Below are positions 13,001-16,000 of a stretch of 64,000 nucleotides of DNA, one piece after another. Below the pieces are notes generated by a model. It did no database searches. It worked only from the letters and a program-made list of their open reading frames with translations, and was not told the origin of the DNA. The translations under genes were made by a program, and so were the position numbers. This stretch comes from Cloeon dipterum (taxonomy: Eukaryota > Arthropoda > Insecta > Ephemeroptera > Baetidae). How positions within the stretch are numbered: position 1 is the stretch's first letter; each line of letters opens with the position of its first letter. The stretch covers positions 3,414,545 through 3,478,544 of the forward strand of contig NC_088790.1 of the NCBI RefSeq assembly GCF_949628265.1, read 5' to 3'.

Positions 13001-16000
13001 GACATTTTCTTGGCTGCTGCGCTCCAAACTTCACTTACTGTTGTCGGGGATATTGATTTTGAATAATAATAGAAGTGCGGAGAGAGTGTAGGAGCGAGAG
13101 ATATAATACGAACAGGCTCGGCTGCTGGCTGACTGGCTCGCTCGCTCCTGCCACTTATCGAGTCGATTTTCAGCATGAACCCCAATACATCTGCCAGGTA
13201 CTTGATAAAATTCACATCTGCTTCCTTTGATGTCACGTCGGGGGGCCACTCATGCAGTCATAAAGTATTTTGTTTATCTATAGTTTGGACACGCGAGATC
13301 CAATTGATCGTTGCTGCTCTCTGGCGAAAAAATTGCCTTTCCACCTCATCAATCACATGTTGTGCGTAGGCGTCAGAACCTCCCCGTCAACTCTGACATT
13401 TTCGATTCGCTTTGATAATAATTTTGCAAAAGCGGACAACAAACGACGAACAAGCTGGAAATCTGAGCCTCGTAATGACATTGTTACAGGGGCGGCCGAA
13501 AAGAGTTCCAAGCACGGCGCCGAAGACAAAGCAAATTCCATCATCACGGCCATGAAGGAGCGCATGAAGCAGCGCGAAAGGGAAAAGCCTGAAATATTTG
13601 AGCTTATTAGGTAAGGTTTGAATTCTGCTTTCTCTGCCCCCATTTTTAAAATCATCATTGAAAAACACTGGGGATTTATTTCCATTTAACCCTCTCGTTT
13701 CAGATTTAAATTCTTTGTTTAATCTTGTCCAAGTAGTTGCTATTTCCATTTCGATAAGCGGTGGTTTGCATTTTAATGGGAGAAAAGGGAGTCGCACTCA
13801 AGACTTCCATTAGCCTGCTCCTTTTTTTCCACAAAGCATCGCGATATATAGAGAAGCTCGTCACTCTTTGATGTGTCTGGAAAGCCTTAAAATGCAAACC
13901 GCGCGCAAATATTGGGGAAGCGGAATGAATCTCCCTTTTTTTCTTTTCCCCCTCGTCGTCTCAAATAAATCGGTGCGGTTCAAAGTGGCCCCTCCACATC
14001 CACACGCGCGGTGCGTTGACTGCTAAGGCGGGAAGAGCCGTGATTGATAAGTAAACACACATCTCTTGATGGTTTTGCGAGCGCGAAAATTTGCCTCATT
14101 ATATTCCCAGCGACACGCGTGCCTGGAAAACTTGATTCAGTCGCTGATCAATAATTCATGGCATTCATGCGGAACTCGTAAATATTCCGGAAGAATCTTG
14201 TTTTGAGTAACAAGTTGCCGCGCGCGCGGAGCCACAAATCACGCACCGCCTTTTCTAATTTCGGAACTCATAAACCGGGGCGTCTCCCGATTTATCGATC
14301 CGCCACCTTCCCTGCAGCCTTTTTCCTTTTTTTTATATTGGTTGGATATACGTGTTTAACGCTCTTTTGTCGAGCCAATCAACTCGTGAATCGCAAATGC
14401 CCGAAACTAACCCCACTTTTAGAGCCGTTTTCGGAGTCGAGGAAAAGAGCCACATCGGTCACATGAAAGCGGTGAAGCAGTCGGTTCTTGATGGCACGAG
14501 CAAGTGGTCGGCAAAGATTGCCATCACAGGTTTGTCCACTGCCCTGGCTGAAACAAGCCACTCTATATACTTCTCTATCTCTGTGTTACTTTTTTATGAT
14601 CGTTATATTATGATACAAATCCTGACGAATCGTCGGCTTTGAACAGCCGCGCTGCTTTGATTCGCGTGTGAGTTGGCATTTTGACGCTTGTACATAAATA
14701 CCCGAATCGATTGTGCAGGAAACGGAGCGAATTTTGCTGAAGAGAGCCGCAATTTCGCGGTTTCATCGGTTTATTGGAGTTCTCTTTCCCCCTTAAAGGA
14801 GAGACATTAAAAGGAAATATATCTGGCGCGCGCTCTGTTTTTCCCCTTCCGCTGAACTTTATAGCTCTCCGGCTTTTATGTCCTTTAGATAAATTCAATT
14901 TCTAAGCAAAGCTCCTATTCGAGTTTATCAATTGAGTTGTTAAAAAATTTACACTCTGCCATAAATCAGCCTGTAAGAAGTCCCGCCGTCTGGTATGCGC
15001 ATTTGCCCTGTCTGCGCCTGATCTGAATTTAAAAATGTATGTATTTGCCTCAGACCCGACCGACCTCTCTCTCTCCGAGCAATTTTCTGCGGCAGAATTG
15101 CTCTTTCGCAAAATCCCCGAAACTCGTTCCTGCTGCCGTGCTGCGCGCGAAATCAGACCAAGAATGTTATCGAGAGCAATTTCGCACTCGTCTCGCAATA
15201 ACCGTAAAAGCTGAAAATGCCAGCCTCTCGAGCGACTCTTCCTCTCTGTTTTCATCTGAATGTAAATGTGCTGGGCATGACGCATCTTAATGACGGACTA
15301 CCCAAAGTTCGTGTTAATTATGCGTTTGGATGTGTTGCGATCGAACGAATCCCGCACCCGGTCGTGTGATTTCTCTCTTTCCCTCCAGTCCAGTCCAGCG
15401 AGTCCAGTAGAAGAGGCGCCGTCGTCGTCGTCGGGGGAGCTGCTGCTGCCGCCACCGCCGTCCTTGTTTGCGCCGCCGAAAAACAGCTTTCCCCCCCAGA
15501 CACAAACAACATTACTATTTTGCCAGTGTTTTTGCCGCCTCTCTATCGTTTTGTGTTTTTTCATATTGATGTGGTGTGTTTTGTGTTTTTTGTTGCTCCA
15601 CAGAACCACATTTTCAGTGGACCCAGATACTCATATAGATTCCCTAGAACAAGCCGAGGAAATCGTTTTAGAGGGGACTTCCAAGTGGTCTTGCAAGATC
15701 GCTATTACAGGTATCGGCAAAATCATTACACCAATCGGTCATGACATCAAAATCAATTTAGAAAATCATTTGAGCAGTCTTCTCTCATTTCATTCAGCCT
15801 CTCTGCCATACTAAGAATTATTCTCAATTTTGCACAAGTACCTGCAAAATATGTATTTGTGACCACTTTCCCTTCTGTGGTATGACCGCAGAAGCACAAC
15901 CCCACTTTGTCTCAAAGAGCATGGGAATTCAGTGTCCCCTCAAATCTCTTCTAACTTCAATTTATTCTATCCAGTAATTTTTAATTCCAAATAATCTAGG

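Follow-up and report, generated by a model that had tools for sequence, protein, structure and literature searches.

Probable mutually exclusive tandem exons that reverse linker charge in an insect unc-13 gene

Between the C1 and C2B domains of an unc-13 gene of Cloeon dipterum lie two exons, A and B, which to judge from their sequences are probably functional tandem duplicates used in a mutually exclusive way, where inclusion of B would alter the function of the C1-C2B linker. Exon A is basic and resembles rat Munc13-1, while exon B keeps the framework and the reading frame of A and has the opposite net charge. The exons are found in a window of 64,000 nucleotides (64 kb), by which we mean the whole stretch of DNA that was analysed.

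The plus-strand gene in the window is, by its domain content, an unc-13 (Munc13) gene. That the genome is an insect's is indicated by its Ubx homeodomain stretch, which agrees with the query in all of 77 residues and continues into QAQAQK and a run of alanines, a hallmark of insects. The Pfam matches follow the order C1, C2B, MUN, C2C, as expected for Unc13/Munc13 (Table 1), and the closest solved chain is Munc13-1, 5ue8, both for the form with A (E = 1.7e-52) and for the form with B (E = 9.2e-47). The exon that encodes C1 ends near position 11491 with the donor A/GTGAGT, and the exon upstream of the pair, E0, encodes FELI at its 3' end, followed by the AG of a split codon and the strong donor TAG/GTAAGG. 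Upstream in the window there is a 588-codon open frame (1198-2961, plus strand), which has no Pfam match at E <= 0.01 and may be a long, unstructured N-terminal exon of unc-13. A second MUN-domain gene, with five MUN matches, is located on another chromosome (C2:9256299-9261580), and a MUN search of 14 control genomes gave 0 matches. The window also contains, at 37538-59467 on the plus strand, a tandem family of some five paralogues that resemble Artemis/Apollo, nucleases of the metallo-beta-lactamase type. The longer open reading frames (ORFs) of these paralogues have a mutual identity of roughly 38 to 88%, and one paralogue ORF matches solved Artemis chains with E = 9.5e-6; when five short ORFs of the same paralogues were submitted to Pfam, there was no match at E <= 0.01.

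Table 1. Positions in the window of the unc-13 features discussed in the text
Feature	Position	Strand	Basis or remark
C1 domain (diacylglycerol/phorbol ester)	11335..11484	+	Pfam PF00130, E = 6.3e-14, residues 64-113 of ORF 11146-11616
Exon E0, upstream of the pair, start of C1-C2B linker	13490..13610	+	Alignment with rat Munc13-1 from residue 620
Exon A, ancestral, basic	14423..14529	+	Similarity to rat Munc13-1 (see text); donor CAG/GTTTGT
GU-rich tract, candidate regulator site (CELF/Bruno/TDP-43-type)	15514..15603	+	Directly 5' of exon B
Exon B, derived, acidic	15604..15710	+	Similarity to exon A and rat Munc13-1 (see text); donor CAG/GTATCG
TAG, in frame only with A and B together	15636..15638	+	Translation of E0+A+B
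Exon C, first half of C2B	17045..17186	+	Pfam C2, E = 4.7e-15; donor TTT/GTAAGT
Second C2B exon (ECHNSS...GEEK)	17733..17979	+	Pfam C2, E = 6.6e-6
MUN domain exons	19824..23690	+	Six Pfam PF06292 matches, contig C5 3434368-3438234, converted with the window offset 3414545
C2C domain exon (part)	25964..26128	+	Pfam C2, E = 6.9e-7, residues 4-58 of ORF 25955-26131

Both exons are 107 nt long with AG and GT at their ends, and both are entered in phase 2 and left in phase 1. These properties and the coordinates of the pair had been given exactly in a preliminary description of the sequence, and the Pfam context bears out its placement of the pair in unc-13, after C1 and before C2B. Each of the two exons completes the split arginine codon that is begun by E0, and each ends on the first base of a valine codon that continues in exon C. 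Since 107 nt equals 2 modulo 3, all other combinations lose the frame, and with the described splice sites only messages with either A or B are productive. When A and B are joined, translation of E0 and the two exons meets an in-frame TAG in B, and when both are skipped, the frame is shifted and a stop appears after 27 residues; in both cases the translation agrees with what had been claimed. The description had further taken the entire 36-residue segment to be C1-C2B linker. This holds for about the first 22 residues and fails for the exon end, which is already the start of C2B, because the solved C2B chain 6nyc begins inside the segment, and because the Pfam C2 match in exon C begins at profile position 6.

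The same frame logic can be read differently. It is conceivable that B is chiefly a regulatory switch, so that messages with both exons, which run into the TAG, or with neither, which stop early, are nonsense mRNAs that reduce the amount of Unc13 in some cells, with the B protein being of minor importance. A poison exon, however, needs no amino-acid conservation in the frame that it has when A is left out, yet precisely such conservation is seen in B (see below), and we consider this explanation unlikely. It is also conceivable that parts of both exons are joined in frame by alternative splice sites, which would give a longer linker: there are 12 combinations of sites, at most 60 nt from the described ends, that use parts of both exons and give stop-free in-frame joins. 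Most of the listed combinations would, however, duplicate or truncate the start of C2B, and the sequence gave, by unscored inspection, no visible sign in favour of alternative sites, which makes a linker of joined parts extremely improbable.

Equal length and an open frame are by themselves insufficient as proof of a duplicated exon, because among the seven segments of the type AG-107-GT in the interval 13640-17040 as many as four have an open frame. The proof lies instead in homology. A and B are identical in 18 of 36 residues, with a BLOSUM62 score of 96, and the identities are unevenly distributed: 12 of the last 14 residues agree but only 6 of the first 22, as anticipated from the preliminary reading of nearly identical second and divergent first halves. 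The framework common to the two exons can be written F.V....HI...L/M......VL.GTSKWS.KIAIT, and B retains the GTSKWS.KIAIT with which C2B starts. When the six frames of the 64-kb window are scanned, ungapped over 36 residues, with a profile built from A, B and the rat sequence, A scores 181, B scores 186 and the next best place scores 50. The scores of A and B are high by construction, since the profile contains them, and the informative figures are therefore the lone 50 and the mutual BLOSUM62 score of 96. A search with B as query over the 190-Mb genome (10 contigs) at E <= 10, where only two candidates passed the first look, returned B itself (3.7e-18), A (1.2e-4) and nothing more, so that a third copy was found neither in the 64-kb window nor with this genome-wide query. 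When the window's 1055 plus-strand ORFs with 20 or more residues are compared with each other at E <= 1e-3, A and B are recovered as a pair with E = 1.6e-4, and in no other pair do both ORFs fall within known unc-13 exons. The self-comparison also pairs 6614-6856 with 12063-12152, where the latter is intronic, and 21564-21665 with 36557-36706. In prokaryotic and viral contig collections, with 24 and 1 pattern matches, respectively, no relatives were found, as expected there.

Which of the two exons is the older can be read from their similarity to rat Munc13-1. The corresponding rat segment is, in a numbering anchored on D705 and D711, residues 659-694. A is identical with this segment in 25 of 36 residues and B in 15 of 36, and because of this difference A is, on sequence grounds, the ancestral form and B a derived copy, altered mostly in its first 22 residues, where 12 residues of A but only 4 of B match rat Munc13-1.

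A derived copy of this kind may in principle be a decaying duplicate, which is no longer spliced. B has indeed diverged from the Munc13-1 sequence further than A, and its donor score (0.70 bits) is the lowest among four that were scored. Decay is, however, at variance with the pattern of substitutions. The aligned codons of A and B differ at 48 of 105 bases, and despite these changes B has retained an open frame, a splice site at either end and 17 of the 35 residues. The codons of 12 of the 17 shared amino acids have changed silently, and no stop has arisen. When 48 changes are instead placed at random on A, the number of residues kept is on average 8.6 and at most 16, a stop appears in 72% of the cases and none of 20000 trials reaches 17 kept residues; this null assigns all change to B, which is a simplification, and the margin is wide. 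In the last 14 codons the differences are distributed as 3, 2 and 9 over the first, second and third codon positions, and only two of the 14 residues have changed. By the NG86 method, dN is 0.79 and dS 2.49 in the first 21 codons, while dN is 0.51 for the whole exon and 0.23 for the last 14 codons; in the latter two cases dS is not computable, which we read as saturation. The within-pair codon test points to coding selection on both copies, and for A this is seen also in comparison with rat. From the silent changes in 12 of 17 shared codons, the lack of stops and the outcome of the 20000 null trials it follows that B has very probably been translated over a long time. A relic exon is rejected on the codon test, and we regard a decaying B as very unlikely. 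At the sequence level, then, mutual exclusion by frame, the coding status of B and its retention by selection, all suggested at the outset, are supported.

How one exon is chosen at the expense of the other may be reflected in the splice sites. With a donor frequency table, the scores are 5.92 bits for E0, 1.78 for A and 1.65 for exon C, to be compared with the value for B given above. The donors of A and B are below consensus, but the donor of exon C is as low as that of A, and weakness is in this respect not special to the pair. Directly before B there is a GU-rich tract (Table 1), with 21 UGU, GUG or GUU triplets in 90 nt, a density reached by 0.08% of the 90-nt windows in the 64 kb, and the corresponding numbers in the 90 nt upstream of A, C and E0 are 6, 4 and 2, where it should be noted that the set of triplets was picked after looking at the sequence. 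CELF factors bind GU-rich tracts, and the choice between A and B probably depends on splicing factors that vary with neuron type and would act on the weak donors and on the tract 5' of B. The mutually exclusive exon pairs of worm unc-32 are set in neurons by the CELF factor UNC-75 (according to the title of a paper cited in PMC12084633), which is in line with a GU-rich tract in this position.

Other routes to exclusion were considered for the pair. Steric exclusion is rejected, as the intron between A and B, with its 1074 nt, is too long. Nor is any incompatibility between U2 and U12 sites apparent: the B donor matches the U12 consensus in 5 of 8 positions and the E0 donor does likewise; before the four acceptors no U12 branch site stands out, the best having 4 to 6 of 9 matches, which is usual for random 45-nt stretches of the window. 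No intron-intron duplex of docking/selector type was found beyond what shuffled sequences give, with 1, 5 and 2 of 15 controls for the respective intron pairs being at least as stable. This comparison concerns one species and 15 shuffles per intron pair, and competing intron structure is one known mechanism of exclusion and not an obligatory one.

The earlier observation that the exchange of A for B reverses local charge is correct: GHMKAVKQS in A has charge +2 and the corresponding DSLEQAEEI in B has charge -4, and for the whole exon the change is from +3 to -4 (histidine not counted). With respect to Munc13-1, K674 and K677 have both become E in B. An argument based on amphipathic helices was dropped, as the helical moments were not above those of shuffled sequences (p = 0.30 for B and 0.64 for A).

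What such a change may mean can be considered with the help of published work on rat and worm proteins, on which our charge arguments draw. In the crystal structure of Munc13-1 the C1-C2B linker is folded into four helices, which touch helix H1, MUN, C1 and C2B over extensive areas, and when H1 is disturbed against the linker and MUN, the primed pool goes down by nearly half while release probability goes up (PMC5344669). In simulations, the calcium-free, upright state rests on the membrane via the sides of C1 and C2B together with the linker (PMC8648301). In the same source, Munc13-1 with K603E or R769E has a severe priming defect, whereas K720E increases release probability and reduces phorbol potentiation, and K706E decreases release probability (PMC8648301). 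K603E, K720E and R769E are similar to B in that a basic residue in the C1-C2B region is replaced by glutamate with altered priming or release probability as a result (PMC8648301), but they are laboratory changes in C1 or C2B, whereas B is a natural splice swap that affects linker residues 674 and 677. When all linkers, rather than one alone, are removed from worm UNC-13, evoked release stays high, which the authors ascribe to loss of the mutual inhibition by C1 and C2B, and spontaneous release is still partly reduced (PMC11991699).

Exon A encodes the final stretch of the C1-C2B linker in its basic, ancestral form, together with the start of C2B. Exon B would weaken the positive face that holds C1-C2B on the plasma membrane in the absence of calcium, or alter the way in which the linker helices brace H1, C1, C2B and MUN, or both, and Unc13 of the B isoform would then leave the inhibited, upright state more easily. 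With B, the primed pool is expected to be smaller or equal, release probability to be altered and probably higher, and potentiation by phorbol ester to be smaller. Because the Lys/Arg to Glu changes in C1-C2B of Munc13-1 and the linkerless worm UNC-13 both alter function, it is plausible that an isoform switch would tune priming or release probability, as the preliminary description had suggested. Its direction is uncertain, since mutations at the interfaces of Munc13-1 do not all shift function the same way.

The exons may also be real and exclusive and nevertheless exert their effect by protein contacts, i.e., with H1, MUN, N-terminal regulators or the calcium channel, instead of by membrane charge. 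The linker helices touch H1, MUN, C1 and C2B in the structure (PMC5344669), and mutually exclusive exons tend to change surface residues near functional sites (PMC7954323). Against this stand the strikingly electrostatic nature of the difference between A and B and the contribution of the linker to the membrane-facing surface in simulations (PMC8648301). An effect by protein contacts is a serious possibility, to which we give somewhat less than an even chance.

Mutually exclusive exons are a known kind of gene organization. The pair in unc-13 is like the tandem exons of insect Dscam1, myosin heavy chain and N-cadherin and of worm unc-32 in that adjacent duplicates are present, of which one is used or, for A and B, would be used, and it differs from them in being a single pair, in its location at the C1-C2B junction of unc-13 and in that competing intron structure was undetected. 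Among the open-licence PubMed Central papers listed by the literature searches, titles, openings of abstracts and text passages did not mention such an exon pair at this junction, and automatic insect annotations may list both exons. Unc-13 was not met in the accessible portions of PMC3228551 and PMC3303723.

The nearest known alternative exon that was found is the VLK microexon before C1, where splicing near the membrane-binding module is binary by neuron class and changes the behaviour of worms (PMC12287369). It differs from A and B in being a 9-nt segment, included or skipped, between the calmodulin site and C1, and not a swap of homologous exons (PMC12287369). A candidate for this microexon, AG/GTT CTC AAG/GT, with 9 nt at 7013-7021 on the plus strand, upstream of C1, is the single plus-strand match of the pattern in the window and agrees with the microexon of nematodes and Drosophila (PMC12287369). 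Drosophila Unc13A and Unc13B, like worm UNC-13L and UNC-13S, are isoforms of one gene with different roles in release (PMC9797049, PMC3743133), but they differ from the forms considered here in that the variation is N-terminal and, in the worm, originates from two promoters (same sources). In the worm, the C1-C2B-MUN-C2C part, exons 15-31, is common to the isoforms (PMC3743133). Drosophila unc-13 is described with seven annotated transcripts, of which C, E and F contain an additional exon (PMC9797049); unc-13 is among the genes that are differentially spliced in Drosophila LNv neurons, the exon not being named in the passages concerned (PMC6025963), and an unc-13 exon of the microexon program has a position common to fly and mouse (PMC8797185).

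Taken as a whole, the scheme would be that of an old, splice-controlled electrostatic switch in C1-C2B of insects, or of this lineage, by which the linker would be basic in some neurons and acidic in others, and the balance between upright, inhibited and slanted, release-ready Unc13 would be set in this way; the switch would be steered by neuronal splicing factors that bind GU. This full scheme is proposed tentatively, and we regard it as rather doubtful in its entirety. If it is true, A and B would constitute a third layer of unc-13 splicing, beside the N-terminal isoforms and the VLK microexon. Current models place in C1-C2B the brake between the upright (primed, inhibited) and the slanted (release-ready) states of Munc13, and a natural pair of exons with a kept framework and an inverted linker charge would, again if the scheme is true, amount to an evolved experiment on this brake model.
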